A stretch of DNA of 64,000 bases, from contig NC_089316.1 of assembly GCF_036669915.1 (NCBI RefSeq), forward strand, positions 22,918,997 through 22,982,996, written 5' to 3'. The notes under the pieces were generated by a model that was given only the letters and a program-made list of their open reading frames with translations, did not search any database and was not told where the DNA came from. This stretch comes from Pocillopora verrucosa. Lineage: Eukaryota > Cnidaria > Anthozoa > Scleractinia > Pocilloporidae. Positions 22,133-43,407 of the stretch are shown piece by piece (within the stretch, counting starts at the first letter, position 1; each line of letters begins with the position of its first letter). The translations under genes were made by a program, and so were the position numbers.

Positions 22133-25100
22133 GTATTGGTCGAGACTCGAGGGTAGTCATGTAAAGGACACTTGTAATTGAGGCTGACAGTTGCTCACGT
22201 TTGGATGATCTGAGTAGAAGTCATCGTTATTGAATCTGATAATGACTCTCTTCTTGGCTGTCAAAACGTCTTTTGCTGTTATCGGGGTCAGTCCTCTATA
22301 CATTTCTCACTTAGCCGGTTAGACTACACGACACGAAAACATTTTACTCCTGGGTTCAAAATATTTACTGCAACAGTGATGTTATTAACAGAATAGAAAT
22401 ATATATATAGCCAAGGCTATATCGTCATATCCCCTGCATTTCTAAAGACTTCAATTAGACTGCGGGACGAGCGTTTCTTCGCCTGCAGGAGAGTTTTCGA
22501 AGGCGCAACGATGGCTATCAAAAAGGCATCATTGCTTTGTACCTACCTTAATCATGGCTATAACAGTTTCCTCAAATCTGATCGGTGCCTTAGCTGTAAT
22601 CGGCTGTATTTGAACAGTTGGCTGTGATCGAACAGTTGAAGCAGCCAATCATACTAAGTCCACTCAGCCAAATCCACCAATCACAGAATAAATCGCAATA
22701 ACAATAGAAACAATCACTTATCCTAAAAGAACTGAGATATTTCCAAAATTAAGAATTTTTTCTTAGTTTAGGCATTGTCTCCACTGGAGATCTGTGATCC
22801 TCCCCCTCCCCCCCCCCCTCCTTCCCCATGAGGATCCTCAGTGTTTTAATTATCCTCCTCCTTTCCCTCTCATTGGCAGTCAGTTTTCCGTAATCCCCTT
22901 TGAACTTTGTTGGAGACGACTGACACCCCATTCGTTTCCCCTGAAAACCATAATGATCCCCCACTGCGACACCCCTGGGGGATAACATAATGACCGGGCC
23001 TTAAACAGCTTAAAAGAGGACATGAGCAAATCACTTAGTACTTTTAACACAATCGCAAATTGCTCGATAGCACAGCATATGCAGCGAAATTGTGACAACA
23101 TGTCTAAGTTTTTGTTTCGTTTTGTTTGTTTGTTGGTTTTTGTTTTGATATCAATTTTTTTCTTTCCTTTTAATTCGTGAAACTTGGTTAGAATGTATAC
23201 ACTATCAAGCTTTGACAAGTGGTGATAGGCGAGAAACTAACGACGTGCATCCCCTCCTTTGCGACAAAGACCTTGGTCCTGCCTGGTTCCGTTTTCTTGG
23301 AGATGCGGTATCTCTGAGATTCTTGAGAATCCATCTTGTGGTGCTACCCTTGAAACCACGTACCCATTTACACTCCCAACCCAAAGGGGATAAACGGAAC
23401 CTCCTCCATGGCTCTTTTCTGAAAATGATTATATATGCTATCGTCAGTAGACATGTTCTGCTGAAACATTTACGTCGACGCAGTTTCTTAAATCTGGGGT
23501 GAAGTCAAAATATCAGGGCTTACAGACTGAACATAACAGGAATGCCCGGTGATCTGCGACAACGCTCATTAATATTTCCTACACTCGAGAAACTACACCG
23601 ACCTAAGGTACCTCCCATGATGAGGACGCTTTCTATAAACAGAATAAAGCACCATCTTCCAAAGCCAAAGGTAATTTCTTTTTTCTTGCCTCTTCAACGA
23701 TATACATGCTAAAGAAGCGCGTCGCGTGACAACCTAAGGAACGGCTACCAAGTTAAGTTAACAGTTATAAAATCTGAAAATATCGAAGTTTATATCTCAT
23801 TTGATAACTTTATCCAAGGAAATGGGAAGAAGTTGAGCGAATGAGACATAGGTGCGTTCACTGCTTCAAACGACAAGATGTGACAAAACATCCTGTCACA
23901 TAACGTGCTTAAGATGTGCGTCGCGTGACATCCTAAGCAATGGCTGCCAATGATCAATATTAGCAGTTATAGAGTCAAAAAATATCGATGTTTATCTCTC
24001 ATTCAATAAACCTATTGAAAGAAATGGACAAATGTTATCAAGCGAACAAGACATAGCCGCACTCACTACTTCAAACGACAAGAAATGGCTTGCGCAGGTT
24101 GACGCAGAAATTTTCTTCCCTTTTTTATTGATTTCCTCTTCCATTCGAACAAAATACCAAGCGACTTGTTTCATTGTTTGACATTCAAATGTGAGTTTAT
24201 TGTACTTAGATAATAGGTAAACAGTCTAATGGAAGAACCTAAATAAAATCATTTGGCTCCAATTTTCTAGCTCGTTCTGAGTTTCTCTCAATGCTTTGTA
24301 GGCCAGTAACTAAAATTAAAATAAAACTTCTCGTTTTGCCTTCGGACGACTAATTCAAACAATAGACTTGAAATGCATCATTCTTCTTGTAAAAAAGTAA
24401 CACAATTCATCGCATTCAAAATTAAAGGAGAAATCTCAGAATATTAACAAATACCAAGACTAAATCCTAGCCATTACGGCTAAAATCTGTAATTTTCAAG
24501 TCCAGATAAACCAAATTCTGATCGGCAGAAACTAACTTTAAGTACCAATGACTGGGTAAAAATTGTCGAAAATTTAATCACAATTTCCATCTTACATAAA
24601 CTAAGATAATCGAGCAATCGGACAACTGATTATTTTTCAATTTCCATGGAAATTCTCCACACAAAAAAAAAACTCTGGGAAACATTTTCAAGACGTTTCA
24701 ACTTCGACGTCAATGCAACGCCCAAATTCGCTTAGTAGATAATACTTAGATTAAAAAATTATTTTTTACATAGCTAGTCATGATAATCTCAAGACATATG
24801 AGAAAAACAACAGTTTCAGCAGGATATCAAAGATGAAGGTCGTAAAAGCAGTTCAGAAAAGCAAAAAGTCAACTTTTGAATCAAAGGAAATCCGTTCTCT
24901 TGTTAAACTTGACTTCAGCCGTCTTTTGATTCATCCTGCTTTGAAAAGAAGACTCTTGAAAAAGATTTCATCGGTAGCATACTGGTTTCTGCGTATCAGC
25001 GTTTTTATGTATCCGAAAACTCCCTGGGAATCCAATGCTCACAGCCTTAACTAAAAAATAAAAGAATCTAAGTTTAGGGAGGATAGTTGAGTTGCCATGA

Positions 25101-25603
25101 AATATTTCCTACCACATGAAACGATACATTGCACAACAGGATTGTTTTAAAAGAAATTTGCTATTCTACTCCTATCATGTTTCCTAACGAGAATGTTATC
25201 ATCGTAAACGTGTCCACTTGATTGTACTGCATCATCCAATTCGTGACCCAAATGAAAGGAAAATAACACGCAAGTATCAGTGCTCATACAAAAGCTATAA
25301 TTATGATTTAAGGTAACTTTGTATTGAATAGAAGGTATAAACAGAATATTTACTTGCTTCCATAGATGGAAGAAAGGAAATGAAGATGAACAAATTATAT
25401 TATAGTCTATGGCTCCTATGAAATCTCATTGTCATCATCAATTAATTGTGTTTATTTATGCAAATTTGTGGCAAGTTTCCCTGGTATTTTCTCAGTAAGC
25501 CACACCCCAGATTTGTTATGAAAATTTAGGGAAAAAGGTGCAACTTTCTCTCTTTTTTCATTTTTTTTCCTGTTTTGAGCTGTGCATTACAATGTACAGT
25601 ACC
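22133..25603. other. Gene-poor stretch with small repeats
   Basis: Holds the duplicated flank block (22565-22725), a C-rich run (22799-22825) and a diverged direct repeat (23712-24087). No supportable exon was found; the ORFs at 23212-23502 and 24833-25054 lack family features. Confidence 0.5.
23712..24087 (+). repeat. Diverged direct repeat, two units of about 195 bp
   Basis: Unit 1 starts near gcgtcgcgtgacaacctaag and ends near cttcaaacgacaagatg. Unit 2 starts near gcgtcgcgtgacatcctaag (about 23912) and ends near cttcaaacgacaagaaatgg. Confidence 0.7.
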
Positions 25604-25736
25604 TTAGAAAGTTTACTCTCTCCAGGATCCCATCCCATGGAATAACTTGTTTTCTTGTTCACTGATTGGGTAACTTTTCCACCATATCTTTTTATCAAAT
25701 CAGCAGCTTCCTCTCTCTCAATACTTTCCAAGACTC
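25604..25736 (-). CDS. RFC1-like: Isolated exon matching RFC1 BRCT domain
   Basis: On the minus strand an acceptor (ttgttattacag) is followed by [44 protein letters not shown] and a donor (aag|gtactg). This closely follows the BRCT domain of replication factor C large subunit, which loads the sliding clamp. The segment TSYSMGWD is one residue shorter than the usual TNYLVMGRD-type segment. No flanking RFC1 exon (BRCT start, AAA+ domain) was found nearby. It is either one exon of a gene with very long introns or a captured or duplicated fragment. Confidence 0.8.
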
Positions 25737-25933
25737 CTGTAATAACAAAGTAATGTCAGTCCATCCAAACAGTTTTATGCTCCCTAAAAAATAAATTATC
25801 ATGTGCATGCATGATTCAAGATGAGCAGACAAATAATTAATTCTTCCCTTGAAGGCCTCTTAACACTGTCCAAACTGAAAAGTTATAAATGACAAAAAAG
25901 TAAATAACTCCGTAGCTACACTATAAACATTTG

Positions 25934-26063
25934 GGATCAATATAAGCATGTGTACATTTACCCCTCCCCTAACCCAAAAAACCATCAAATGATAGCAAGT
26001 AAGGGTTAATGTTGGCTTAGGGGAGGGGTAGGTAGGCAGTTTCTCAGATACTGACATTGAACC
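25934..26063. repeat. Short palindromic MITE, copy 2
   Basis: Same family as 6320-6419. The arms tttacccctcccctaaccca and ttaggggaggggtaggtagg face each other, with outer arms gatcaatata... and ...atactgacattgaacc. Confidence 0.7.
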
Positions 26064-26112
26064 AACATTTGAACAACAACTGAGAGTAAAAGGATAAAAT
26101 ACATTTTTTTGT

Positions 26113-26324
26113 TTAACCCTTTAACTCCCATGAGTGACCAAGACAGAACTTCTCCTTACAATATCAATACAATATCATGCAGACAAGTGATGAGAATAAA
26201 TACAAATATCAGCCAGGGGATTATTAGTTGATCCAAGACCAAATTCTCCAAACTAACATTACAAGACTTGTATAACAGACATTAAGGTGAATTACTACTA
26301 AGGTCTTGGAAGTAAAAGGGTTAA
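26113..26324. repeat. TTAA-ended MITE
   Basis: Begins ttaaccctttaactccca and ends tggaagtaaaagggttaa, an inverted pair bounded by TTAA. The TTAA ends recall piggyBac- or Kolobok-type target sites, which is inference. Related pieces lie at about 26485-26560, 28670-28790, 35336-35560 and 40315-40508. Confidence 0.65.
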
Positions 26325-27058
26325 TCAAAGCATTTTTTCAATAAACTGTATCTGCAGATTTTCCAAACCAGCTTTAATTCTAATAATCTTCATTTTCCTT
26401 TGTCTTGCATCTCTCATTAAAATTTGAAAGGATGGAAAACAAACCATAAAGAGCTTTGAGAGATAATAATTTAACTACCAGAAGAAATTAACATGTAACT
26501 TCTCCCAAGAATATCCATACATTATCCAGCCAATAGGTGAGAATACTAAAACTCATCAGGCACATGTGGCTGTGCTATTAAATATCTTAGACACCAAAGG
26601 ACTTATCCCTTTAAGGGGGTCCATAGTGTCGTTTTTGCCAAAACTATTCCTCAATTGGTCACTACCCATTAATTTTGTGACATGGTATGTGTTCACTGTA
26701 GTTCATCCTGACACAACTATAACAGATTGGCAGAGCATCTACCTACAAGGAATGCTTGATTAAGCCAAAAATTAACACATGATGCATGAATTTTACAGAA
26801 AGGCAAGGTATGGTGAGGTTTAAAGTTTTCCCTGTTCAATGCATGATGCATGAAGTACTGTCAAAAATACTCAGGATGCCTGATTTTTTTCTTTAAAAAA
26901 AATTGTGGGCAAAACAAGAATAGTAAGTTATTCCCCTTTTTTTTCTTTTGGCAAATGTTTTCCTGGATTCCCTTTCAACTGAAGTAGAACCAAAGAAATC
27001 AAGTGCAGAAGTTGTTTTTTCTCTTTAGGTTTGACTGGACTGAAGCAAGAATAACAAT

Positions 27059-28507
27059 CCGTTTACTATCCGTTTAAACCCTTTTAAACGGTTCATGAAA
27101 GCGTTTAAATGGTTTGCTCAACCGTTTAAAAAAATTTGCATCCGTTTAACGCTTTAGCTAAAACATTTAAGCGGTTTGCTTATCCGTTTAAAAAAATTTG
27201 CATCCGTTTAACGCTTTTGGTAAAACGTTAAAGCGGTTTGCTCATCCGTTGAAAAAAATTTGCATCCGTTTAAAAAAATTTGCATCCGTTTGACGCTGTA
27301 ACAAAAACGTTTAAACGGTTTCTTAATCCGTTGTAAACAAATTATTTCCGTTTAACGTTCCAAGGAAAACTTTCAACTGTTTATTTATCATTCTGTTATA
27401 GGCAGTTCGAAGTATCAATCTTATGTTCGCTCGATACCCGCCGGTTCTTGAAATGCAGAATGACCGTACCTTATTTTGGCTTTATCTTTTTCGTGATCAT
27501 AGAAAGCGAGTAATCGTCGCATCCTTGGATAAACGAGTTAAGTTAAAATATCCGTTCGTACAAACGTAGAGCATCGACAGCAAATGAAGCCATTCACTTG
27601 ACCATGATCTTGCCATCGATCTTGTGTAAACAGTGCGCCTCAGATCTTGTTTACAGATTGGTGAAATCGAGATAACCCTATCTTGGTTCCCGTGCCATGG
27701 TTTCGCTAAATTGGCTACTCTCTATCTGTTTATATCATCTTAATTCATCTTTCCTGATTTTACTGACAATTATTTCAACGGCCGCGCTTAGTGCGTGACA
27801 CCGATTCGACCTTTTATTTGCTAAAGAACTTATACATTGCGTGATTTGACCCTGAAGCGTCTCGGCTTCAGACAAGGTCGCGGCATTGCGTCTGCAGACT
27901 TGTTTCGTGAAACACATGAAGTTTATTTTCAATAATAATAAGAATGAACAAAGGAGGAGATTGTGTGTTTCTCGCAATAGCCGTTTAGGGTACTTGGCAG
28001 CGAAGCTATTCTCAGTAAATTGCGCTTATTTCTTTAATGTCACACGAAAACGGTAATAGTTTACCCAGAAATAAAATGCGCTAGTGTATCCTAGTTATAG
28101 TTTTTCAAATTATTTTGCTCAATGTTTTCGCTTCAAGATAATTATCCATTGTCGCTCGGAAAGTTTTTCCGCAGAAGATCTTACCGGCTCAACCACAACC
28201 GTTTACATTAATTTTTAGCTCTCTGATTGTCGATTCTGGTCAACCGTACGTTTCTCGGTTTACGCTATCCGTTTTTGGACTTTGGTCAACCGTTTAACGT
28301 TTCGAGCCAACCGTTTTAAATTTTGGTCAACCGTTTGAGGGCCTAAGCTATCCGTTTTTGGACTTTGGTCAACCGTTTACAATTTTTACCATCCGTTTAA
28401 GCGGTTATGGAAACCGTTTAAACGCTTGAGCTAGCCGTTTAGTATCCGTTTAAAACCGTTTTTCTAGACCGTTTAACGGAAAAGCGTTAGTGTCCGTTTT
28501 CCCATGG
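27059..28507. mobile_element. Element I: ends made of CCGTTTAAACGG-type palindromic words
   Basis: The left array (27059-27375) and right array (28230-28507) are dense in ccgttta, taaacgg and their fused palindrome ccgtttaaacgg, with spacers such as aaaatttgcat (left) and ggtcaa (right). The 0.85-kb interior lacks these words. An 80-codon minus-strand ORF (27977-27735) is the only candidate reading frame and has no known domain. Exact termini and a target duplication could not be fixed. Confidence 0.55.
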
Positions 28508-28814
28508 AGGGTCACAAATCATGAAATAGGTATTAGTATTGCATACTGCAAGTGCTCTGCAGAGTTAGTAAGCTGCAGTTTGAACAAATTTGTAGGGAAT
28601 GTTAATGTCCAAGATATTTCAAACTTAAGTGAAATTTAGGTGGCAGTGTATCACAACACACTGTTTAATCTTCAAACTCTCAGAGGTAATTAACATGTAA
28701 CTTCTCCCTAGAATATCCATACAATTTCCAGCAAAAGAGTAATGAAAAAGTTGTTATCTTGATCTAACAACAAATTCCTATAACAAATGTGACTGTGAAA
28801 GGCAAAAAAGACAC

Positions 28815-29890
28815 TAATGGTTATCAGTTTGAACAGGTAAACCATTCGTTATTTGTTCATCATCCATTCAAACACCTAAAAAAATCTGTTCAAAGTGTTC
28901 AACAAACTGTTGAACAGTTTGCATATAAGTTCAAAATACATGAACATCCGTTCAAAGTATTGTGACATCCGTTCGAATGGTGTCGACATCTGTTCAAACG
29001 GTTTTTGCATCTGTTCGCCAACTAGAAGTGTGCGTTCGGAGAACTGTAGCATCCCTTTGAATGGTTTTGGCATCCATTCAAATGGTTTCAGCATCCGTTC
29101 GACAACTAGAAGTGTCCATTCGGAGAACTGCGGCATCCATTCAAACAGTTTGATGTCTGTTCTGTTCATCCATTCGAAAGGAGAAAATTGAACTCATCAT
29201 TTCTCTACAGATATTCAGTATAGCGGTCGAAACGTTACAATCCACATCTCTGTGACTAAATTGTAAGACAAACAATTAACTATGATGACAAACACCTTTC
29301 ATGAGATATTCAGTAGTTCAAGACAATAACTATAAACGTTATTTCAATGACAAATTGAAATAGTCTCCATTTTTGATCGTGAGAATAAAGGCCTTGAAAT
29401 TGACTACAACAACAAATGAAATGAAAAAAAATACACAACAACATTGCCCATTCCCTGATCAAGCCATGCGCTAGGAATGGTTTTGCAAACTGTTTAAGCA
29501 ATTTAGTCATCTGTACGATTGGTAAACCAATCGTACAACCAATCATACAGATTAATAACATTTTCATCTGTTCGAATGGCTAGCCAGTCCATTTGACATT
29601 ATCTGTTTTACTCATCCATTTGAATGGCTACACAAACCATTTAAGCAATTTATTCATCAGTATGATTAGTGAACCAATCGCACAACCAGTCGTACAAATT
29701 AATAATATTTTCATCCGTTCAAATAGCCTGCCGGTCTGTTCAACATTATCTGTTTTACTCATCTGTTCAAATGGCTGACCAAACCATTCACATAATTTAT
29801 TCACCCATTCAAATAGTTAGGCAAAATGCTTAAGGACCGTTTGCTAACTGTTTGTCATCCGTGTGTTTTCGCTGTTCAAACAGTTTTCCG
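28815..29890. mobile_element. Element II: ends made of CCGTTCAAACGG-type words
   Basis: Arrays at about 28815-29165 and 29510-29890 repeat catccgttcaaa, ccattcaaatgg and gttcaaacagttt. A perfect 12-bp hairpin, tgtacgattggt/accaatcgtaca, sits at about 29512-29540. The interior (29170-29500) has no reading frame of note. Same architecture as element I but a different centre to the word. Confidence 0.5.
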
Positions 29891-30379
29891 TCAGAGTCTG
29901 TTCTGCCTTTCAGGCTCACAAATGTACATGGGAATGTGTAGCAACAAGAGGAGAGAATTAGCAAACAGATCTTAGGAGTTAAAGGATGAATACAAAATTG
30001 CTTCATTTTACAATCCTGTTTAGGATAAAAATGAAAAAAGGTAAAACACTGTAACTTATCAGCCTCACTCAGGTACCCTGACATACTCTGACAGGCTATT
30101 GAAAATTATGCTAACAAAGTTAATTAATACACAGTACCACACCATTTCTCACATTCCAATCCAGAAAGATACCTTGGGTTAGATATATGTAGATGAATGA
30201 AACTCTTGGTTAAAACATGTTGTAAAATTATCTACCATGTGCTAAATAAAAGATTCAAGACAAAGGAAATTTTACCATGTATGACAACAAGTACCAACTT
30301 TGGCAAAATAAGGTATTCCCCCGCCCTCCTCCCCGAGAAGATAGATGGGAATGTGAATTGCAGAGTACATAGATACACA

Positions 30380-31080
30380 TGAATGAATGAATGGATGAAA
30401 AACTTTATTCATGTGTCAAATCGATCTAGCCGAGGGTAAGAAACCCTCTACTAATAGGGGACACCTAAACTCAATACAATAATTTAAAATTCAACTAATT
30501 TAACTATTTACAATAGATAAAATTTAAATACGTCATTGACATTAAGAACTAAAAGTTTAAAACTACCTTATTTAATACTCATTATTAAATCAAATAAACA
30601 CATAGAGCGTTCCTGAGCCAGATAATTGTTCATGTGCTACATAGAACACAGTTCTCACAATCGTATTCTAATTTAGACGAAAGGTTAGTTAAACAGATCT
30701 GTTTTTTAAAAGATTGTTGAGAAGGTGAGGTTTTTATGTTAGTTGAAAGTCGATTCCACAGCAAAGGGCCAATATATCTTAGGGAATGTTTTCCATAGGT
30801 AACAGTATTAAATCTAGGAATGTGGAAATCTGCGCCTCTGAGGTTGTAAGTGGAACTTTTCAATGAAAATAAATTTTTGACAGTCGGTGGGCACAGATTA
30901 TGCCTCACTTTAAACATTAAACAAGCTATATCCTGTAGCCTTCTTTCATGAAGAGATTTTAAATTAGCCTTCTTAAGTAATTGCTCATATGTAGATTTAC
31001 TATCTCTGAAGACTGCACGCAAACCCCTCTCCTGAGTGCATGATGATCGATTCAGTCAGACAGGGGCTGTGATATAGCAG
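30380..31080 (-). mobile_element. 5'-truncated CR1/L2-like LINE
   Basis: The minus-strand frame from about 31045 to 30630 reads CTQERGLRAVFRDSKSTYEQ, LLKKANL, ERRLQDIACLMFKVRHNLCP, GKHSLRYIGPLLWNRL and ends DCENCVLCST. This is the C-terminal region of non-LTR reverse-transcriptase ORFs known from CR1/L2-type elements. A 3' UTR with an aataaagtttt-like signal and a short tttttcatccattcattcat tail end the copy near 30380. RT catalytic motifs are absent because the copy is 5' truncated. Confidence 0.75.
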
Positions 31081-31157
31081 ATCTTTTCTCCGTCATCTCT
31101 AAAGTCGAATTCCCTGATAACATAAATATCTTTCTCTCTCAAATGCTACATTATCCA

Positions 31158-31245
31158 TTACTTACCTTGCTTTTCGTTCGGCTCTTTCCTACATCTTGCT
31201 TCGATAATGACTTTGCAGTAGAATCTTTGCCGCGCTTATTTTCTA
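31158..31245 (-). other. Possible Lys/Ser-rich exon with good donor
   Basis: On the minus strand VSKVENKRGKDSTAKSLSKQ, DVGKSRTKSK runs into aag|gtaagt. The acceptor is unclear and a stop lies just upstream. Composition resembles the disordered N-terminal part of RFC1, and the strand agrees with the BRCT exon at 25.6 kb, but linking them is speculative. Confidence 0.25.
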
Positions 31246-31271
31246 CTTTCGAAACGCCTTACTTCGCTGTC

Positions 31272-32640
31272 TTTCCAAGCAGGGCTGAAGAACGATCGGA
31301 TATCGTGTAGAAATATATGTAATTATAATTTAAACACCGGTTAAAAGACTGCCGCTGAGAACCAAAACGACTTACAAACCATTTTAGTGTAGTGATGTGT
31401 TCACATTACACTACGACATTTCGCGCTATCTTTGATAATCTCCTGTACTTCAGTCAGCGGTCACCAACCTAGCTAGCTTCCAGACTCCTGCTATTTCTCT
31501 TCCGCTAAGTTTCCGAGAAAAACAATAGGTCATAAGATAACCATAATCTAATTCGAATTCGCGGAACCAAATGGAAGGAGCTGTCAGACGAGGGAGGTTG
31601 AACCACGTGCAGTTGCCCCAATAGATTGCTTTGGAAATGGCGAATAGATCCGCGGAGAACACTTCTCAAGGGTACGTACTCTGTTGTGGATGTCGATATT
31701 TCCATTAATGAATGCGCCCTAGATTCGCGCACGCTCGTTCAGTGATTTGGTTATTTCGTTTCGCTATTGTCTCCTCGAGGTATATTGTTTGTTTATTGAA
31801 AAATACTCAAAATTCGCAGAAATTTGCAAAAAGTTATATGTAGTTTTATACGCTGTCATTCAAAAACAATTTCATTTAATATAAAATGACTCTATAGAAA
31901 AAAAAAACTACGTATAAAAGTTTTACCGATTGGACTGGAATGGAATAAATGTGGTCGTGTTACGATTAGTGCGTTTTTTCCCAAACTTGAAATTACACTC
32001 GTTTCTAAATTGTATCTGCTTAAGTAGTAGCAGATGATGGAGTTTATGCGCAGAATTGGATACAACTGAGTCAAAGAATTAACGCTTGTAACACTGTTCT
32101 TTGCGCCTGTCATTCAAAGGTCTGATGCCATACAATGCATTTGGTCTCTATTGTAAAACTAGAATCGACCATATCTCCGGAATTTTTTAGAGCTCAGTGT
32201 AAATTGCCAAACCAAACCAAACGAACTGAAAATATGAAAATCTCCGTGGTGTTCTTGGCTGAATCTTCACTACGTTCGCGAATATATAAATCCTCTTCTG
32301 TATTTAAAAGAAGGACTGTACCATTCAGCCATAAAATGCAAATCTATAATTAACCTTAAAATTCCGTGAGGCTGCAGCTGTCCGATTTACAAGTTGTCAA
32401 GTATCGATGTTCGTAGTCGATAAATAATTCGATTGCGTGACATGACACCTTCCCTGAAAAATATCGCGTGACTATAGTTGGTTTGCAGCATGTTTCTGAT
32501 CGAAAAATAATAATTAAAAAAGTTTTCGTTGAGGTTTCAGTAACAGTAATGGTCGTTCTGTTATCATTTGAATGATCTGTAGACTGAACTGACCGATTCA
32601 TCCTTAAGGGGGGCATTGGGATTTTCTATACTTTTTTTTG
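31272..32640. other. Spacer
   Basis: No exon, array or inverted repeat could be supported. Confidence 0.45.
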
Positions 32641-33060
32641 AGATCGGGTTTTGTGCTAAAATAAAATAATTTCTGTTTTTCGGATTAGGTATTCATTGCG
32701 GTTTGCAAAATTTTCCGTTCTTTAGCATTTGGTTTTCGGTTTTCGTCAAAAATACCTGTCTAATGGGTTGCGGATTTGGTTTCCGATGAAGTTTTTGGAC
32801 TGTCCTATTTGGATTCCGTTTTCTCTTCGATCCAAGCGTCCATTATGCGCCTCTGCGCCTCCACTGATCTCGAATAGCCGCGAAACCTCTGTATGCTCCA
32901 CTTGTCAACACCGTAGCGGATCGATTAGAGTTTTGAGAACTGGGATGTGAACATTTATCGGTTTTGACTGTTTTGCATGCGGTTTCCGGTTCTGGTCGAA
33001 TTTTTTTGCGGTTTTGCGGTTGTGGATGATTTTTTTCGACGGCTTTGAAGTTCCTAATAG
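32640..33060. repeat. Array of GGTTTTCGG / GCGGTTTT words
   Basis: ggttttcggttttcg near 32731, then gcggttttgcggttg near 33010, with gcggtttgc and gcggtttccggttc between. Possibly the remnant of another array-ended element (class IV). No inner gene is visible. Confidence 0.4.
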
Positions 33061-34439
33061 ACCCTCTCATACTTCCGTACAGTGGAGTTCTACACGGATT
33101 TTTGCTTTGCAAATTGAAAATCTCTCTTTCTAAATTTACAGATCTTTCCTTTTGTTATGTTCCGTGTCTTAAATTACAGTAGGCCTTGTTTAGTTATTTC
33201 CTCTGAAATTGTATGAGGAATTCTTTTAAGTTTATATTTTAAATTTTCTTTTTTATTTTTCTGGAAATAAGTGCTGTTGTCTTTCTCACTTCAAACTTGA
33301 ATATGGGACTGAAAGTGAGGGGAATGTGGGCTGAAGGCTGAGGTGTCCATGCCAGACAGCTTGATCCTGCCTTTGTCTGCATTATTATGTATTAACTTTT
33401 TAATTTTCCATTCCAGCATGAATTTTTAATGTTCTGTAACACCTTTTTTTCTTCTTGAATACTAATAATATCACAAATTTATTTTAATCCAAAGATGTCT
33501 TTGCAATTTTGTTTTTTGAGACATGCTGATGGATTTTCAATCTCAAAAATTATCGATTTAGGTGCCCCATAGTTATCAAGGAGAGTCTGTTTGATCTTGG
33601 CTGTCTTCCTCCAGCTGTAAGTGAAATACTGAAGTAACTTTCATCAAATAATGACAACAAAATTGTTTACATGTAGCAATGATTTGGTTTAGCGCCCTCT
33701 TTCCAATAAGCACCCCCTCTGGAATAGGTGCCCCTCTCCCCCCTTGTTTTAAGTCAGAAAGTTTGAAAGGTGTTCCTGTTTTGCTAAAACTTCATCTGCA
33801 ATTTCATGCTTGCATGATTCATAATAATTATTACATGTATTATTATTTTTAAGCTCATCATTATTTTTATACTGTCCTTTGTCAAGCAAAGGGTCAAATC
33901 TGGACTTCAAAACTGCAATGGATTTCCTGGTTTGCTGATGTGAGTACAGAATTGATTAATCAAGCAAAAAGGTCAAGGCTTACATTGAAGGTCAGCAACA
34001 TAAAGTCTGATCATTGTGTACTTTTAAGTTATTGTACCTAAGTCTAAGTGACTCCCAGCTACATGTACTTTTTTCGAAAAAGTTGCTACTTGTAATACAA
34101 GGCAAGGGGATGTGCTGCTAATTCAGCTGGCATTTTCATAACTCCCTTAACTATAATGAGGTTACATTTTCAGTAGAGTTACAAGAGTGGGGACTAACAC
34201 ATTTTCATGATTTGGAAAATTTTCCTACATCAAAGTAAGGATTTACATACGCAGCAAAAATTGACCCAAAAACTCCCCCACCCCTGATCTATCAGGAAAT
34301 TGTGCCATTTCAGTTAGAATATAAACACAGTGCAATAATATGAGGCATTCCCTTATTGAATGGGTTTAATGGGAGTGTATTTTTAAGTGAGCTATTTGAG
34401 TGCTACTGTTTTACCAATGTTTGTGTGGTTTCCTTTCAG
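33060..34439. other. AT-rich stretch upstream of STRA6-like exon
   Basis: A possible small exon at about 33562-33617 (CPIVIKESLFDLGCLPPA, donor ct|gtaagt) was seen but not verified. Otherwise featureless. Confidence 0.3.
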
Positions 34440-37400
34440 ACCATTTGATTTTTGCTGTTATGTTTGGTGCCACTTCTAGCACATGCTTGAATGTCTTTTT
34501 ACAACCAAAAAATGGAATTTTTCAGATGCCTGACCCAGCTGGATGGGTGCAGGGTAAGTGGTCATACCATGGCAACCTAATTTTGAACAAATTGAGTGTT
34601 TGTTTGTTTTGCTTTGTTTTTTCTCTCACTGTTAAAATCATTTTAAAGACTATAGTAGCTCTAGGCTAACTCAGTTACTGTGGACCAGTATTAGTTTATG
34701 AACAAATTTTAATATTAATAGTTATATAGAATTTAACATACAGTTTAAATGACTAAGAGGAAATACATGCATTGTCAGGGTTTTCAGGCATTTGGTTTGT
34801 GTCTTAAGCCAGCTGTTAGCATCTGTGCAGTATTTATTGCATTCTCCAGAGTTTGCAGTAGTACTCCTTTGGATGTTAAGGCCCTGGGGCCGTCCTCATC
34901 CAGTGGTATACCTTATCAGTGCATGTGTTGTTCCACCATGTGCCTGTGTTGTGTTTGCTCTTCTCTAGCATGGGATTCTTGTCCCTGAGGATAGCAGTTC
35001 TTGGTGTTTCCCCCCCCCCCCCCTCAACCCTAATTGCAGGGTTTCTTTTGCGGGGTCCATTTCAGCAAGCTGCCACTTTAGCCTTGGATAGGCCAGTTGG
35101 TGTTCTAGCACCTTGGGGTGTGACTGTAGTTGCAGCTCCTGGGCCCCTTGGGCACCTAGCCTCCATTTGTGATGAGGGTGTGAACTTGATATTAAGTTAT
35201 TTATTTGGAATATTTAGACAGGCTGGCTTAGTTTGGCTTTTAAAAGCAGGTGTAAATGTGGGCTTCTATAAATGATAACAAGGCCAGATGACCACACTGG
35301 GAACCACATTTGTTACTCTTTGTTGAAGTCTGTCAGTTGTTTTACTCTTTAACTCTCAAGATCTGATTATTAATTAATTCTCCCCTCTAGCTGCTGCACA
35401 ATTGCATATTCATCAGTTATGAGAACTTTTCTGTTGGATCAAGAAAACATCTTCTACCTGAGAAGGTTTGGGTATTCTCATCACTTGTTTGCAAGATAAT
35501 GTAAGGATATTATAGGGAGAAGTTACCTGTTAATCATTTCTGGGAGTTAGAAATAATGTTCCCTGCTTATAACCAGTACAGAGAAGATGTAGGAGAGTAT
35601 GGGGCCTATGGTTTATCATCCTTAGCCAAGAAGACTAGAACGTCTAACCATTTGCAGATGTTGTATCAAAGGCAGCACATTCCCCTCAGTTATTTTAAGA
35701 CCCTAAGTGTTGTTGTGGTCTGAGGCTTGAACCCTCAACTACCAACACAGCCTTAACACCTTCACTATATAAAAAGAAATGACAAGGACACATCCAAACT
35801 GATCGCTAGATACTTTAATCTCCCTAATCATTCTGGGCGGCATATGGCACTTTGTGGCCTTTCCCTACATCTAGGTAGTTTCCCTTGCGAAATGGCTTTT
35901 GGAATTCCTAGGAATTCCTGGGAATAAAGGTGTGAATTTTCACGGTAAATTCGGACTGGGAATTCCTAGGAATTCCTAGGAATTCCCAACCATAACAACT
36001 CTGGTTCTAAAAACCTAGAAATTCCTAGAAATTCCCAGAAATTCCCAGAAATTCCAAGTTTATAGCCAACAGGACTTGGAATTCCTAGGAATTCCTAGGA
36101 ATTCCTAGGAATTCCAACTCAGAGAACCAATGACTTTCCCTGAAAAGCTGTATATCTAAAAAATTCCTAGGAATTTCTGGGAATTTCTGGGAATTTCTGG
36201 GAATTTTTGGGAATTTTTAGGAATGTTTAAGAATTACTGGGAATTTTAAGCAAAAATTTGAGGCTTATGATATAAAATAAATACTTTAAATTAAAAAAAA
36301 CCCAGCTAAAATTCAAGTATTCAATGAAATTTATTTAAAAGCTTGATTAAGGCGTACATGTAAAATATTTTTGATTAATTATTAACATCAATGTGTGGTA
36401 ATATTAGGATGGAATTTGATTTATTTTTCTTTTCTTGAAAACTTCATACAGATTAATCCTCAATTACAGCTATTCATATAAAATAGTTCTAATCAATCAT
36501 TAAATTTGGTTTGACACAAATTGTGAATAAAATCTGTTGATTCTTTTCCAAAAAATACAATATCCTAAGTTATATTTATATAGTTATATTCTTGGGAGTG
36601 AAGGGGCTAATTACAGACAAATAAAATTGATTTTTTGATTAAAATCTTGTTATAACTGTAACAATAAATTAGAATGAAGTTATCCTAAACTGCAAACTTA
36701 GCTGCTGTTTGTACTGTTTGTATTTTTTTTCCTGGACTCACAATGAGTTGGCCTTGAATGAGGTTGTCAACAAGAACCTTGACCATTTTGTAACTGGATT
36801 CCTTGACATCTGAATTTGAAAACAAAAATAATATATTAAAATATGTATGTTTAAAGCTCAGACCAGGCTTTTAAGATGGCTATGAGGAAAAGGGCATTCA
36901 TTGGATTCTCAAATTGAGAAATCTCTGTTATATTGAGTGACTTTTATATTGGAGTTAGTACATCTCTCTCATGGATTTTACTAAAAAAGGGCTGAATACA
37001 TTATTTTGTTTTTACCAAGGAGGGCTTCTTTATGTACTAAGGTTTGTTATGAATCTTGAATGTTCCCAAACGTGACTAGAGGAATCTTGAAACCTTACTG
37101 ATAGGTTTATTTCATTGTAAAGCATAAGCTTAAGAAACTGCGGCATGCAAGTGACCGATTCGATTCTCAGAATTATTCTAGTTTCAGTTGCGCCGAGCGT
37201 TATGTAAGCTTAATTCAACCCGCTACATCTATTCTTTTATAAGATTTTGATCACAACGAATATCGCAATTGTTACTCACCACAAACTTTCAAAATCGTAG
37301 CTTTACAGATGGCCACTCGACCCTTGTTTGTACCGGTCCATATGTCAACTGTTGTCCCTACTTTTAACTCCACGGCGCCAACGACTTTCTTCTCTTTTAC

Positions 37401-40048
37401 AACGCTCACGCTATTCTCGTTTTCCCATTGAACCACAATAAAAGCTATCTTTAGAAATGTTATATTAAGCAAAACAGTTGAGAAAAGCGATCAACCGATG
37501 AAAAGTACATTCAAAGATGAGCGCCAAATGGAGTCTTCTTTGTTTCCGATCACCGGCATGATCACGTGGATCTTTTAGGACTTGTCATTGGCTAGCAGAG
37601 TGAATCCGCTGGCTTGCCGATTGCAGTGTTAAGAGAAGCGCCGAACTTTATTTTGACTTCTCCGACCGGTTCTCTGCTTCTAGAAGATGGATAGCTTGGT
37701 GATATAAATAAAAATGTGAGCTCACTCTATGTAGAAATAATCGACAAGAATCGATCGTATTACAAATGCACGATTTGTGGCCGAAAGTTGTCGAGGAAAC
37801 AAAGACTCGAAACTCACTTGAGTTGTGTTAATGGCAAAGGTGAGAAATAACACAAGCCAATCACAGTTTTGAATGCGACTACAAATCGTCTTTTACCCTC
37901 ATATTTATAAAAGGAGGATACCACATTCGGAAGTGTAAGAGATACATAGATGATCCCAGTGTACCAGTACCTAAATCTACAAAGCTTGACCGTAGCAAGC
38001 GTTCAGCAACACGTTCCAACGCCGCCATCTCGATTCCTCAGTCAGTCGTTTCCACTGAACTTAAAGCAGTATTGACAACAGAGTAGAGTGCGTCTTACAA
38101 AGGAGAAACATTTGTACAAGAGACAGGAGTAGCTATATGCGATTACAGAGGTGCGTTGGAACTCTGGTCCACAAATAGTTATGCACTGCCCGAAGTATAA
38201 AACAATTTTGTTGATAGCTGACAGACAGAGAAGAACAACAAGTAAACTTAAGAGCTGTTATTACTGAAGTGTGACTAGCACTTTTCATTTTTATATAAAG
38301 AAGGACTTGTAATTTGCACCAAAAATAAAAAGATGTAATATTTTTTTGGGAGATCCAGTGATTGGGACATTTAAGAAATTAAGTTATGAAAGGAAACTTG
38401 GTTGGTACTTCTCACTACTAACAAGTCTTGTTGACAAATATTTTCAGATCAGAGTTTCAAATAAAGTAAATTGAAGACGTCATATAAAAGGTGTTTTTCC
38501 TCAAAGGGTACATTGACTACCTCTGTCTTGTCTGCATGCCAAATGTTTGCAAAGTGTGTGGATGATCCACAAGTATTGGAACTCTTACAAAAATGTTTTG
38601 TAAGAATAAAAACAGCAAAACAAATTACAGCAATTAGTCATGAAAATAGAGCAAAAAACTGAAAAAAAGCAGCAACAACAATCATGAAAAAAGAAAGATT
38701 AATTAGGTGTTGAATTTGTTTGTCTAAGGCATGAAATTTCTACTAAAAGTATTGTCAACAAAAAGTCTCTGACAGCGTTTGAGGCAACTGAGCTTGACTG
38801 TTCCAAGGTTTTCTAACAAAGGCAACCAGTAATGTAGGTTAGGGAAGTAAGATAACAATGTAATTATTGTTAATTATTGTGGAAGTTGGCAATTTCCATT
38901 TAACATAACTGACAGCTGGTTCATGAGAAAATCCATATTAATGTAAAGATTTACTAAAACTTAGTTTGAGTAATAAATTTCATGATCTTTAAGTTATAAA
39001 CATGTACATGTATGTATATCTCTTGGTAAGTTTTGTATAGCATACCTTTTATTGAGCCAAAGTTTTAAGCCTCTGAAATTACTCTTTTTCTTAAAACCTT
39101 CACATTCAAGGTATTGAGAATTTCTTAGAATTTATGTGGACCTCAGGGTATTAAAATTGCCTCAAATTCAATTCCCAGCAATTCCCAAGAGTTCCACACT
39201 TCTTAAATTATAAGTAGTTTGTAAAGCTGAGAATTCTTAGGAATTCCTAGGGATTCCAAGTCCTCACAAAACTGGAGTCTTCCTAATTCCCAGAAATTCC
39301 CAGTAATTCCAAGCTTTTTAAATCAGAGTTAATTTGCATAGATGGGAATTTTTGAGAATTCCTCGGAATTCCTAGGAATTTCTAGGAATTCCTAGGAATT
39401 CCTAGGAATTCCCAGAAATTCCCAGAAAACTGGGAATTCAGTTTGCAAGGGTCATTTGCATAATTGGGAATTTTTGAGAATTCCTAGGAATTCCTAGGAA
39501 TTCCCAGAAAACTGGGAATTCAGTTCGCAAGGGTTGAAGGGTCGCAAAAAACTTCAGAACAAAAGTATCTCTCAAATAGGCACTCTTAAACCCCACGGTA
39601 TCAACAACTAATTTATTCTTGTTTTCTCATCACCATATTCCCACCGATAGCATAGCTCCATTTTCTGCCTAGAAATACACACACAACCCACAGTTCCTCC
39701 AACTGCTCTGACGAAGGGCTATTGCACGCGAAATGTCAGCTTTTAAACTCTATAAAGTGGCCAATTTCCATTATCAACCCAGTCAATGATACTAAATTAC
39801 CTTGTTATACTCTCCCACTGACGTGGCACCACAGTTTCTATACAAACTTACCCCCTTTACCTGCACAGCAGTCCAACACTCAACATGAGCTAGCAGAAAA
39901 AAAAAATTAATTCCTCTGTTTTAATTAGTTTTTCAGAATATTGTCGCTGTTCTTGCATACAGGATCCTGTTCTACCCATTTTTTGCCTGTCTGACAACTG
40001 ACAACAGACTGGTTGGGTCCTTGCTGGGTTTTCTTTATGTTACGATCA
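34440..40048 (+). CDS. STRA6-like (RBP receptor family) membrane protein, partial
   Basis: Two exons are supported: 34440-34553 (acceptor tttcag, donor cagg|gtaagt) reading HLIFAVMFGATSSTCLNVFL, and 39937-40048 (acceptor tttttcag, donor cag|gtgagc) reading NIVAVLAYRILFYPFFACLT, TDNRLVGSLLGFLYVTI. Order and content match the second and third hydrophobic segments of STRA6-type proteins, which move retinoids across membranes in vertebrates. Splice phases (1 out, 0 in) do not join directly, so a small exon between them is missing or lost. No further exons follow before the retroelement cluster at 40.5 kb, so the gene may be broken there. The intron between these exons contains a SINE, a MITE and element III. 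Confidence 0.5.
35008..35026 (+). repeat. Poly-C run
   Basis: About 15 uninterrupted C residues (tttcccc...ctcaacc), a likely length-variable or error-prone site. Confidence 0.8.
35600..35770 (-). repeat. SINE, second copy, inverted
   Basis: The reverse complement contains B-box-like gagggttcaagcctc, cacttagggtcttaaaataa, ctgaggggaatgtgctgcc, and atctgcaaatggttagacgt. These are the same landmarks in the same order as 16932-17190. Confidence 0.75.
35899..36245. repeat. Left GGAATTCC palindrome array of element III
   Basis: At least five clusters of ggaattcctaggaattcc-type words (10-bp period) separated by 20-60 bp spacers. The innermost cluster drifts to gggaatttctgggaatttct. Confidence 0.85.
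36719..37472 (-). CDS. Small two-exon gene inside element III, unknown function
   Basis: Exon 1 is 37472-37279 on the minus strand, from ATG (MLNITFLKIAFIVVQWENEN...) to donor gtgg|gtgagt. Exon 2 is 36811 to about 36687 (acceptor aaattcag), reading DVKESSYKMVKVLVDNLIQG, QLIVSPGKK and ending in TAG. Phase 1 to 1 is consistent and the product is about 106 residues. The middle (VVQWENENSVSVV...VGTTVDIWTG) has the look of a small SH3/Tudor-like barrel, which is inference only. It starts about 220-270 bp from the oppositely oriented zinc-finger gene, so they may share a promoter. Confidence 0.5.
37741..38086 (+). CDS. Small zinc-finger gene inside element III
   Basis: Exon 1 ends at 37839 (gcaaag|gtgaga) and contains YYKCTICGRKLSRKQRLETH, LSC: a C-x2-C-x12-H-x2-C finger. 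Exon 2 is 37914-38086 (acceptor ataaaag), reading GYHIRKCKRYIDDPSVPVPK, a basic Ser-rich tail, and stop TAG. Phase 1 to 1 fits. No ATG is visible in frame after the upstream TAG near 37690, so an earlier exon or a non-ATG start is needed. Likely DNA binding, unproven. Confidence 0.45.
39165..39520. repeat. Right GGAATTCC palindrome array of element III
   Basis: Same words as the left array. It also holds an internal partial duplicate of the terminus (actgggaattcagtttgcaa at about 39429 and actgggaattcagttcgcaa at 39511). Confidence 0.85.
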
Positions 40049-40511
40049 GGTGAGCTAGCTATATTACTTTGTTTATGAATACCAATTTAATCAGACTGTG
40101 AGTTTGTTTTTTTAATTATCAAATACAGTTCTCAGAACTCTACAATTGCCAATACTTAATTCAAATATTACTCTAATGTGGAATACTACTCTTGGCTTTG
40201 AAAGAAGTGATGTTTGTGTTAATTTTGGACCATGTTTTGTACACATGTCCTGGTAAATAGGGAACACAGCATGGCTTACATGCGATACAATAGACTAATT
40301 TGGTTCTCTCTGCTTAATTAACCCTATCAGCCCCAAGGGTAGTCAGCATGTAAGTTCTCCCTCCAGTAATATTGCTGAATCATTCATTGAGATCATTACA
40401 ATATGAATTCTTCTCATCAGTACCAATGAAAATTTATAGTTAAGAGTCTAGAGAATATGGATATTGATCTTAACCCTTTAACTCCCATGAGTAACCAAGC
40501 GAGAACTTCTC
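40049..40511. repeat. MITE pieces next to Penelope fragment
   Basis: A ttaaccctttaactcccatg copy at about 40472 is interrupted at acttctc by the Penelope fragment; a related piece begins near 40319. Confidence 0.5.
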
Positions 40512-41380
40512 GTAATAGTGTAGTTTGATCGTCCGGGTGAGTGTAGTCCTGAGAAGGACTGTTGTCGGTAGTGGTGACTGACGTTTCGACAACCTGAGCG
40601 GAAGTCATCTTCAGAGTCAAGTGAATAGTTGTTGTCAGTCGAATGTTCTTAGTCCGGTTTGTTTAAACTGATTGTCGGCTTTGCCGCGATGTTATTGGCT
40701 GTAAAACTCAAGTGGCGTAGGTCGGTCGTGATTGATCAGTCTCGATCCGTTAGTAAAGTTAGGTCGTTCTGTTCAGTTCGTTTGTAATGTTAATGTCATG
40801 GATGAGTCGTTTATATGGTGCCGATAGTGGTTGACACCTGTTGAGGGGAGTCTGTTCCAAGCTAGCTTTCCAGAGTCAGTCGTTGAAAGTAGTTGGAGTT
40901 GTCGGTTAGGCATTGCGCAGAGTCCTAGTCAATAGTGTGGTTCGTAAGTCGCTGTTGTTCAGCAATGTGATTCTTGACATCGCCTTTCCTCGTCGCTCGT
41001 TTGTGTTCAGTCAGTCTGGTTGTGAGGTTTCTGCTAGTCTCACCGATGTAGGAGGCGTGCCAGTCGGAGCAGTTGACCTTATAAACTGCTCCCTGTCTGT
41101 GCCTCGGTTCGTCTGGGTCTTTGACGTTAGTCAGTAACAGACGTGGTGTGGTAATGGGTTTGTGAGCGACGCGGATATTGAATGGTTGTAGGATGCGCGA
41201 GATGTTCTCAGATATGCCCTTTATGTGCGGTATAGTTGCTGTAGTCGTAGGATTTGCGTTGTCGTTAGGTTCGGTAGTAGTAGTGGTTAAGGTCGGTGAG
41301 TGTTTCGTCTGATGAAGTCTTCGTTATAGTTGTTCGTAGAAAAAACAGGGTCAAGGTACTTGTTCTCGTCAGATAATATC
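40512..41380 (-). mobile_element. Penelope-like element 3' fragment with GIY-YIG endonuclease, inactivated
   Basis: The minus-strand frame from about 41300 to 40860 reads PHIKGISENISRILQPFNIR, then GAVYKVNCSDWHASYIGETS, NLTTRLTEHKRATRKGDVKN and HIAEQ. This is the GIY-YIG nuclease domain diagnostic of Penelope-like elements, with the YK and YIGET motifs visible. At least two in-frame stops lie after NHTID and near FQRLTLES, and a frame change occurs near 41290. The reverse transcriptase part is absent. Confidence 0.85.
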
Positions 41381-42531
41381 AAAATATCTGCGGTACGTAG
41401 TTTAGCAGATATTTGTTTTCTGCACGTTCTGTATTTGGTATTCTTAGTGTGTTATACAATTAGGTGTTTCAGTTACGCAATACGCGTTAATTACATGACG
41501 TATATTTAGCTGTTGTCAGTTCGTGATCTTCCTTCAGGTCTGCTAACGCCACACGCTCACTCCACCGTTCTTTAGCATGAGCAACTCTGAGGAAGCTAGG
41601 GCACGTTTTAATCGGAACGATGGAGTTTGAGATCCTTCTGTCGGTGCTGTTATACGGTCTACCGTTTCTGAATCGATGGGTTCTTTAACCGATAACCTCA
41701 CTATAGGTTATTGAATCTCGGCTTAGCGATTTCGCGAAGCGATTTTCCGTGGAGAACAGCTCTTCCGTTGAACAAGCAGCCAAGAGAGCTCGGCGCGAAC
41801 AATATACCTGCAAAAGGAAAGGAAACCAGCAGCAGTTGGATCATTCCCTCCGGTGATGGATAAACTAGACGAAGCATCCGACGCTCTCAAGCAGAAATTG
41901 TACGAGAAAGTTAAAGTTGCCCAGGAGTCAGGTACTGAATTAGTTTCCAAGCGTGTTGAAGCCACTGATTAAGCTAGTTGACAAGAGCGAATTTGGATAG
42001 GCGACCGTTAACGAATATTTGTCTGACGAACTCACCTCTGACTCCGACGACGAGAAGAGAATTTACCGGGCCGAGAGGAGAGCGGATAAAGAGAAGCGTC
42101 GTCATGTCCGTTCTGACGAGAAAGGAAGCGGTTCCTCCGCTGTACACTGCGCGGCTTCTTCGTCGAAATTCTCGTCTAAGGATTTGGCTTCTCGTTCGGA
42201 AGCTAGACCAGCTCGTCGTTTGGTGCCTTGTTTTTACTTCGTCGATTATGGCGTTACACTCAGGCCATAATCCAATATTCTCCATGAATTGCTGTTTTGC
42301 AGTATTTCGTTCTATAGACTAGGTTAGTGCAGAATATCGAAATATCTGCGGTACGTAATTTAGCAGATATTTGTTTTCTGCACGTTCTGTATTTGGCATT
42401 CTTTATTGTGTTAGACAATTAGGTGTTTCAGTTACGCGATACGCGTTAATTGCGTGTCGTATATATAGCTGTTGTCAGTTAGTGATCTTCCTTCGGGTCT
42501 GCTAACGCCACACGCTACTCCACTGCTCTTT
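41380..42531 (+). repeat. Direct repeat of DIRS 5' region (two ~193-bp copies)
   Basis: 41380-41572 and 42339-42531 share aaatatctgcggtacgta, agcagatatttgttttctgc and the run to gctaacgccacacgct. The copies differ at scattered bases. Confidence 0.8.
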
Positions 42532-42774
42532 TATTTTTCTACTGTGGATTTTATTTTCATGCTGTTGTGTGTTCCCCTTTTTTCAGTTTGGAGGTTTTGG
42601 TCATTTGAGCTTGACATGCACGAAACCTGCGGACACTTCAAAGAGAAGCGCTCGCCGTGATTGACTAGATCGCGGTTTGTTGACCACTGATGATACTGAT
42701 GTCCAGCAGGTTGAGTGTGATTTTTTAGCGACTAGTTTAGTGTTAAAGGCGGTAGCAATGGCGTCAAAGGTCGC

Positions 42775-43407
42775 TTGAAATCCTCGCTTAATTTCTGGGT
42801 TGAAGCATTAAATGCTTCAGATTTTGTGCTTGACATGATTAGGCGTAGTTGCAGGTTACCTTTTGCCCATTATCCTTCACAGTGCTTTCTAAAGAACGAC
42901 AGATCTGCGCTTCAGCATCCAGAATTTGTGGCCGAAGCAATAACCGAGCTACTTAATAATGGTTGTATTGTTGAGCATGTCGTTCCTCCGTTCTTCATGA
43001 ATCCTTTAACAGTCGCGGAAGGAAAGAAGTTGCGTCTCGTTATTGATCTTAGGCGCGTCAACAATTGTTTAGTTAAACCCAGATTCAAATATGAAGACTT
43101 AAGCTCGCTATCCCAAGTTCTGGATGAAGGACACTGGTTTTTCACATGGGACCTTAAGTCCGGCAACCATCATGTTGATATTTTTCTTGATCACCAAAAG
43201 TATCTCGGTTTTGCTTGGCCCTTTTCCGGCGTTGTTGGATATTTTACCTCTGCAGTTCTTCCTTTCGGCCTTAGTAGTGCCTGCTTTTCAGCTTCTCTAG
43301 ACGGCACCGTTTTCAGCGGCATGTGGGAACCCGAGGATATCGGCCAAAGTTCTACGTTCCGCGAACTGAAAGCTATTTATTTCTTATTGCTTTCCTACGT
43401 TGCTTAA
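42775..43407 (+). pseudogene. DIRS-like reverse transcriptase with internal deletion
   Basis: The 210-codon frame holds RT landmarks in order: KLRLVIDLRRVN, FFTWDLKSGNHHVDI (motif A Asp), and LPFGLSSACF (motif B). The frame then jumps directly to SSTFRELKAIYFLLLSYVA, which belongs to the start of RNase H. Motif C (the catalytic Asp pair) is therefore deleted. A TAA interrupts the frame just before the RNase H DN motif, so the protein cannot be active. Confidence 0.8.

Follow-up and report, generated by a model that had tools for sequence, protein, structure and literature searches.

VANDAL transposons are plant elements related to the Mutator-like elements (MULEs), and their VANC protein differs from the BEN domain considered below. 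In Arabidopsis these elements carry tandem short motifs in noncoding and terminal regions, which differ between relatives and are bound by an element-encoded protein (PMC5735166; this article and the others cited by number were available in part). Here we describe transposon ends with a similar organization in a stretch of 64,000 nucleotides from the stony coral Pocillopora verrucosa (C5:22918997-22982996, contig NC_089316.1), hereafter the window, which holds three elements, I, II and III. Binding and demethylation were shown for VANC, according to the available part of that work, and the coral system is described here from its sequence.

Transposons of the hAT superfamily, to which Hermes belongs, have target site duplications (TSDs) of 8 bp. 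Hermes carries many short sites at both ends, the AAGT subterminal repeats being sites for its BED domains, a zinc-finger binding that is proposed and partly shown (PMC10368747); its hAT transposase, its word and its protein differ from those of the coral elements. Muta1 and other Aedes MULEs of the type-2 foldback kind have subterminal tandem repeats of 9-15 bp and nonautonomous derivatives (PMC5225508), with TSDs of 8-9 bp and long true terminal inverted repeats (TIRs), whereas the left and right coral arrays are not inverted copies of each other. The CMITEs of Acropora are likewise nonautonomous elements of corals (PMC2872659), but they are about 100 bp long and piggyBac-like, have a TTAA TSD, and are described without mention of word arrays in the available text. 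The AT-rich 4-bp AWWT TSDs of Sola2 (ATAT, AAAT, ATTT) and its short TIRs match those of I, II and a further family seen in loci L031 and L032 (PMC3627910); the accessible part of that article mentions neither subterminal word arrays nor a BEN gene, and the comparison covered TSDs and TIRs.

We consider it probable that I and II are Sola2-like cut-and-paste transposons and III a second transposon, and that their arrays are platforms for element proteins, with a BEN-domain protein as reader and a DUF7869 protein as transposase.

Word arrays and element boundaries

The initial annotation had seen here a cluster of elements whose ends are arrays of short self-complementary words. Arrays are indeed present at both ends of I (27058-27400, 28250-28515), II (28789-29200, 29480-29919) and III (35882-36250, 39100-39533), and they are the ends of DNA transposons: boundaries common to several copies, TSDs, and empty sites for two insertions show that the elements have been mobile. 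The features of I and II are as follows.

27056..28515, plus strand: element I, ~1.46 kb, a family-I copy with its first ~50 bp (left TIR) gone
27058..27400, plus strand: left array of I, CCGTTT words on a 20-21-bp grid
28250..28515, plus strand: right array and right TIR of I (inward GTGACCCTCCATGGGAAAACGGACACTAACG)
28785..28788: TSD AAAT, left of II
28789..29919, minus strand (strand given with respect to the fetched L033 sequence): element II, 1,131 bp, TIR GTGACTGTGAAAGGCAAAAAAGACACTAATGG
29920..29923: TSD AAAT, right of II

The words quoted in the initial annotation are mostly not literal in the window, with no exact match for CCGTTTAAACGG or CCGTTCAAACGG and one for CCATTCAAATGG; GGAATTCCTAGGAATTCC has nine (6 left, 3 right), and GCGGTTTT has two, one of them outside the patch at 32640-33060 to which it had been assigned. 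The vocabulary is, as proposed, common to both ends of one element and different between neighbors, but it is not strictly one per family, because CCGTTCGAACGG is common to two families with different TIRs. The central dinucleotide does distinguish I from II, as TA versus CG and not as T versus C.

Elements I and II

Searches for words and TIRs were made over the whole 353.4-Mb assembly. The word CCGTTTAAACGG gave 69 matches against 25 for its reversed control, and both ends of one element type, family I, were found in 7 of the 24 loci fetched around these matches. The family-I TIR is GTGACCCTCCACGGGAAAACGGACACTAACG; a 31-mer search allowing C or T at one position returned 50 exact matches and none for the control, and these pair into 13 convergent pairs (six read in sequence), eight of which lie 1,429-1,456 bp apart. 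Copies are flanked by TSDs in L004 (ATAT), L008 (AAAT), L010 (ATTT), L011 (ATAT), L012 (AAAT) and L025 (ATTT), with no TSD at the copies in L015 and L018. The L012 copy is nested inside a copy of III, and its empty site lies at window positions 38430-38445, with the single AAAT of the window III at 38436..38439.

Element I aligns to L025 as 27056-27703, from element position ~51, followed by 27705-28516, and derives by internal deletion from a longer element of family I. Its right TIR lies at C5:22947481-22947511, and no TSD was found because the left TIR is lost. Most of its words are polar half-sites, with CCGTTT present 9 times on the left and 13 on the right, and AAACGG twice and not at all, respectively. 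Compared with L004, window I has changed at 16 of 170 CpG positions and 47 of 319 other G/C positions, showing no CpG excess. Recent activity of the family is suggested by four copies with 99-100% identical arrays. As side observations, the family-I copy of L002 sits in a long minisatellite whose units resemble GTATAGAGAACAGTATCAACACCATAAGAAAT, and L015, L016 and L017 (C6:9.55-9.62 Mb) have common flanks and all show III nested in a family-I element in the same way, so that they look like duplicates of one region.

Element II reads as CpG-decayed, its CCATTCAAATGG words being derived from CCGTTCGAACGG. The pattern C(cg)TT(cg)AA(cg)G, where cg stands for CG, TG or CA, occurs eight times in II, nowhere else in the window and never in 500 shuffles of II. 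When only the letters C..TT..AA..G are fixed, II holds 14 matches with 36 of their 42 variable dinucleotides being CG, TG or CA, versus 7 of 51 in the 17 window matches outside I and II. The ancestral word CCGTTCGAACGG was therefore predicted before the genome search, which found 76 matches versus 15 for the control, in arrays of related elements; among the first 50 of the 76 places many lie in runs spaced 21 and 43 bp. Five loci chosen for such runs (L030-L034) were fetched and their ends searched with a pattern that required AWWT beside GTGA, so that only the identity of both sides was freely tested. L033 holds a relative of II with 73-80% identity (TIR GTGACCGTGAAAGGCAAAACGGACACTTACGG, TSD AAAT), and L031 and L032 belong to another family (TIR GTGACCTCTCACGCGAAAACGTTCCTTACGG, TSD ATAT). 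In L030 both ends of this second family are present without a TSD, and L034 has one end. GTGACC ends are common to the copies read, except for window II (GTGACT, GTGAGC) and one end in L018.

We take I and II to be members of one group, which is characterized by TIRs starting with GTGA and by words CCGTT-NN-AACGG or their half-sites, spaced ~21 or 43 bp, with NN being TA in family I and CG in II. A 4-bp AWWT TSD flanks 10 of the 13 two-ended copies of the group that were read, L031-L033 having been preselected for AWWT; for family I, a 2-bp duplication inside A-WW-T would also fit the data. An 8-bp TSD had been considered for II; it fitted window II alone and failed in L004 and other copies, because of which the 4-bp reading replaced it. 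The same copies fail the 8-bp TSD of hAT elements, and TSDs of 4 bp for I, II and L031/L032 and of 2 bp for III do not agree with the 8-10 bp of MULE/Mutator elements. Two of the three elements are probably Sola2-like, this being the closest superfamily by TSD; the earlier remark that no standard superfamily is defined this way is doubtful, given the AWWT match to published Sola2 elements (PMC3627910).

Palindromes, spacing and conservation of the words

Selection for cruciform-forming ends had been offered as one explanation of the arrays. Perfect palindromes of at least 10 nt were counted, overlapping centers apart, against 300 order-1 Markov shuffles, and they exceed all shuffles only in III, whose arrays hold 11 and 9 versus shuffle means of 0.5; I, II and the patch at 32640-33060 remain within the shuffle range, although the words of II turn palindromic when CpG decay is taken into account. 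The perfect palindromes of III reach 42 nt, which speaks for cruciforms, but I has mainly half-sites, and the words of II are 12 bp long and placed on a grid. Because of the grid and the half-sites of I, protein binding is favored over selection for cruciform-forming DNA, which we regard as very improbable.

The words are spaced at close to whole multiples of the helical repeat. The best period is 10.35 bp in the left array of window I (power 13.5/15) and 10.45 bp in the right (6.5/9), 10.50 (7.3/10) and 9.80 bp (5.2/8) in II, and 10.05 (13.4/21) and 10.30 bp (14.7/24) in III, all computed without a null distribution. In L004, with periods of 10.34 bp left and 10.38 bp right, the periodicity of the right array exceeds all 500 random placements and that of the left array exceeds the 95% point and stays below the maximum, the null having been scanned on coarser periods than the data, which slightly favors the data.

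Words also tend to change more slowly than the spacers between them. From L004 to window I, changes affect 15 of 232 word positions and 74 of 536 spacer positions (5 of 767 shifts of the word mask were as good); from L004 to L018 the values are 21/265 and 89/645 (19 of 909 shifts), and from L018 to window I 9/213 and 41/595 (116 of 807). Near-helical spacing and slower change together fit an array of protein sites on one DNA face. With the BEN-domain gene present in the family, they bear out the part of the initial annotation that saw sites for a sequence-specific factor.

Its other part, a concerted homogenization of both ends, finds no support. Across five family-I copies (L012 with its nested insert and the interrupted L015 were left out), left arrays are 84-100% and right arrays 89-100% identical, and within a single copy the left array is only 49-58% identical to the right one in either orientation, which indicates that there is no homogenization within a copy.

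The arrays might instead be tandem repeats that grew by slippage at transposon ends and have no function of their own. Units do expand, since L011 holds one 20-bp unit more than L004 and the left array of III has 14 AATTCC words in the window and 10 in L012; TRF detects tandem repeats in the arrays, slippage of a single unit length could yield part of the helical spacing, and word conservation fails in one of the three comparisons. We nevertheless find this explanation unlikely, as words change at about half the spacer rate in the other two comparisons, the different words of I, II and III follow grids close to the helical repeat everywhere but in the right array of II, and words are present at both ends of every element.

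Candidate proteins of family I

One long family-I copy contains a 594-aa DUF7869 open reading frame and the 5' part of a BEN gene; another, in L025, contains the 3' part of the BEN gene with the BEN domain, the start of the gene being cut off. The DUF7869 protein has a predicted DDE-integrase-like fold, an RNase H-like core with a conserved acidic triad, preceded in the model by ~300 residues. Sequence searches yielded no solved-structure relatives of this protein, and named rows among the 120 matches listed for it are stony corals. The BEN domain matches Pfam PF10523 with 33.7 bits (curated cut-off 23.2), and the gene also encodes a coiled coil. The words of I carry two CpGs and those of II three. 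Three further single-TIR loci, L027-L029, hold neither DUF7869 nor BEN; a 709-aa open frame at a truncated family-I end (L029:4062-6188) is possibly another mobile element. One search of a literature collection for DUF7869 found no paper, and the titles and abstract openings searched describe no transposons with BEN genes.

These observations also admit the view that the arrays are sites of the transposase alone, as in Hermes, and that the BEN gene was picked up a single time as a passenger. The two ends of Hermes carry 17 and 14 sites of this kind, with a quasi-palindromic pair among them (PMC10368747). A BEN-domain exon was found in only 1 of 29 loci, no copy read holds a complete BEN gene or both genes whole, and ~300 residues precede the DUF7869 core in the model. 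On the other hand, the surviving parts of the BEN gene have open frames with canonical splice sites and also a poly-A signal, two copies agree at 99.7% in the 5' part, and BEN domains are known to bind palindromes such as CCAATTGG and ACATGT, according to the available parts of two articles (PMC6911014, PMC7764960). We regard binding by the transposase alone as a serious, if somewhat doubtful, alternative.

Element III

Element III is a DNA transposon different from the I/II group with the same architecture. Its features, with the empty site of the L012 family-I insertion already mentioned, are as follows.

35880..35881: TSD TT, left of III
35882..39533, plus strand: element III, 3,652 bp, TIR CCCTTGCGAA, boundaries from copies in L012 and L015-L017
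35901..36246: left array, GGAATTCC/TTCCTAGGAA on a 10-bp grid
36685..36809, minus strand: later exon with stop (DVKESSYKMVKVLVDNLIQGQLIVSPGKK...) of the minus-strand gene, placed by eye
37275..37490, minus strand: exon with VVQWENENSVSVV of the same gene, splice donor GTGAGT placed by eye
37695..37847, plus strand: C2H2 zinc-finger exon of the plus-strand gene
37927..38086, plus strand: next exon of that gene, start placed by eye
38436..38439: single AAAT, empty site of the L012 insertion
39100..39533: right array
39534..39535: TSD TT, right of III

The 2-bp duplications are TT in the window, TA in L012, and TT for a copy inside a family-I right array, seen from its left side in L017 and its right side in L015, with L004 as its empty site. 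Two equal bases alone are weak evidence of a TSD, and the empty site is strong evidence. The nine bases GTTTGAAGG occur both at the window target site and at the one within the family-I array (L004), by chance or through target preference. When the nested copy is left out, 98.6% of 3,527 aligned sites agree between the III copies of the window and L012 although III is CpG-poor, because of which CpG content was rejected as a clock for III.

The two small divergent genes of III do not look like transposases, and no transposase was recognized in the frames read; we give III no superfamily name. Tblastn with P0001 and P0002 covers 36724-36813 of the minus-strand gene. Of 451 candidate relatives of its protein 449 reach E <= 1, as do 100 of 107 for the plus-strand C2H2 protein. 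The zinc-finger exon matches PF00096 with E 5.5e-4 and 20.7 bits, under the cut-off of 25.2, and a stop codon interrupts the next exon in the window copy, several relatives reading on. The best named relatives of a III protein are from Pocillopora. No relatives were confirmed in viral and prokaryote contigs. The longest contigs are of equal size for P0005 and P0142 (9,703) and for P0030 and P0207 (8,899), which suggests that the two genes may travel together. Structure prediction for the minus-strand protein gave a useless model (mean pLDDT 38.6), sequence searches found no convincing solved-structure relatives of a III protein, and comparison of the minus-strand protein with the N-terminal piece of the BEN gene did not find homology.

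Two observations on these relatives stand apart. P0124, labeled Hapterophycus canaliculatus, a brown alga, is 98% identical to the III zinc-finger protein over 62% of the query, through contamination or transfer. The longest contigs of P0081, a relative of the minus-strand protein, and of P0292, a DUF7869 relative, are both 57,010, so that a single contig may carry elements of the III type together with DUF7869 elements.

Surroundings of the elements

The CpG observed/expected ratio is ~0-0.1 across much of window positions 25000-40400, the CpG-rich exceptions being I, II, the 31.0-33.1 kb region and the core of III (37.0-38.2 kb), and the CpG poverty of 25-40 kb resembles that of a methylated gene body. 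A CpG-rich 2-kb stretch (31060-33080), in which loose CGGTTT repeats mark the right end, separates a retrotransposon-like fragment from the CpG-free gene body. It includes the patch at 32640-33060 that had been listed as a fourth patch, which finds no support as an element: its palindromes are not above chance, and neither it nor the whole stretch has similarity among the 24 loci L001-L024. The fragment, a 141-aa frame on the minus strand (30390-31055), resembles the C-terminal part of a reverse transcriptase from a non-LTR retrotransposon. Frames at 40925-43407 look like a Penelope-type element with GIY-YIG on the minus strand and a reverse transcriptase on the plus strand, and an exon at ~39966-40050 looks like that of a STRA6-type membrane protein.

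Discussion

In the reading we prefer, the arrays would serve as landing platforms whose many sites lie largely on one face of the DNA and are read by a sequence-specific protein encoded by the element. Once bound, this protein would mark both ends and bring them together for use by the transposase, with a possible further effect on the chromatin of the ends. In family I the candidate transposase is the DUF7869 protein and the candidate word reader the coiled-coil BEN-domain protein beside it, and the short copies would be internal-deletion derivatives moved in trans. Transposase activity, an intact BEN gene, binding of the words by the BEN protein and the effect of this binding are what we infer.

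DUF7869, a Pfam domain of unknown function, gains a candidate role as transposase, and a BEN-domain gene is linked to ends of transposons in which palindromic words with CpGs abound. BEN proteins have been discussed as host chromatin and insulator factors in the available parts of two articles (PMC11472053, PMC6911014), the first of which reports that BANP and BEND3 prefer unmethylated CpG motifs, BANP only when oligomerized, partly via a coiled coil. It is conceivable, if rather a long shot, that oligomers of the transposon BEN protein bind the arrays of CpG palindromes only while these are unmethylated and keep them so, as an animal counterpart of VANDAL and VANC in which the TA/CG difference would switch family specificity. 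Since young transposons are the most methylated ones in cnidarians, as far as the accessible text of one study goes (PMC8857917), a transposon reader of unmethylated CpG palindromes would make anti-silencing in animals directly testable.

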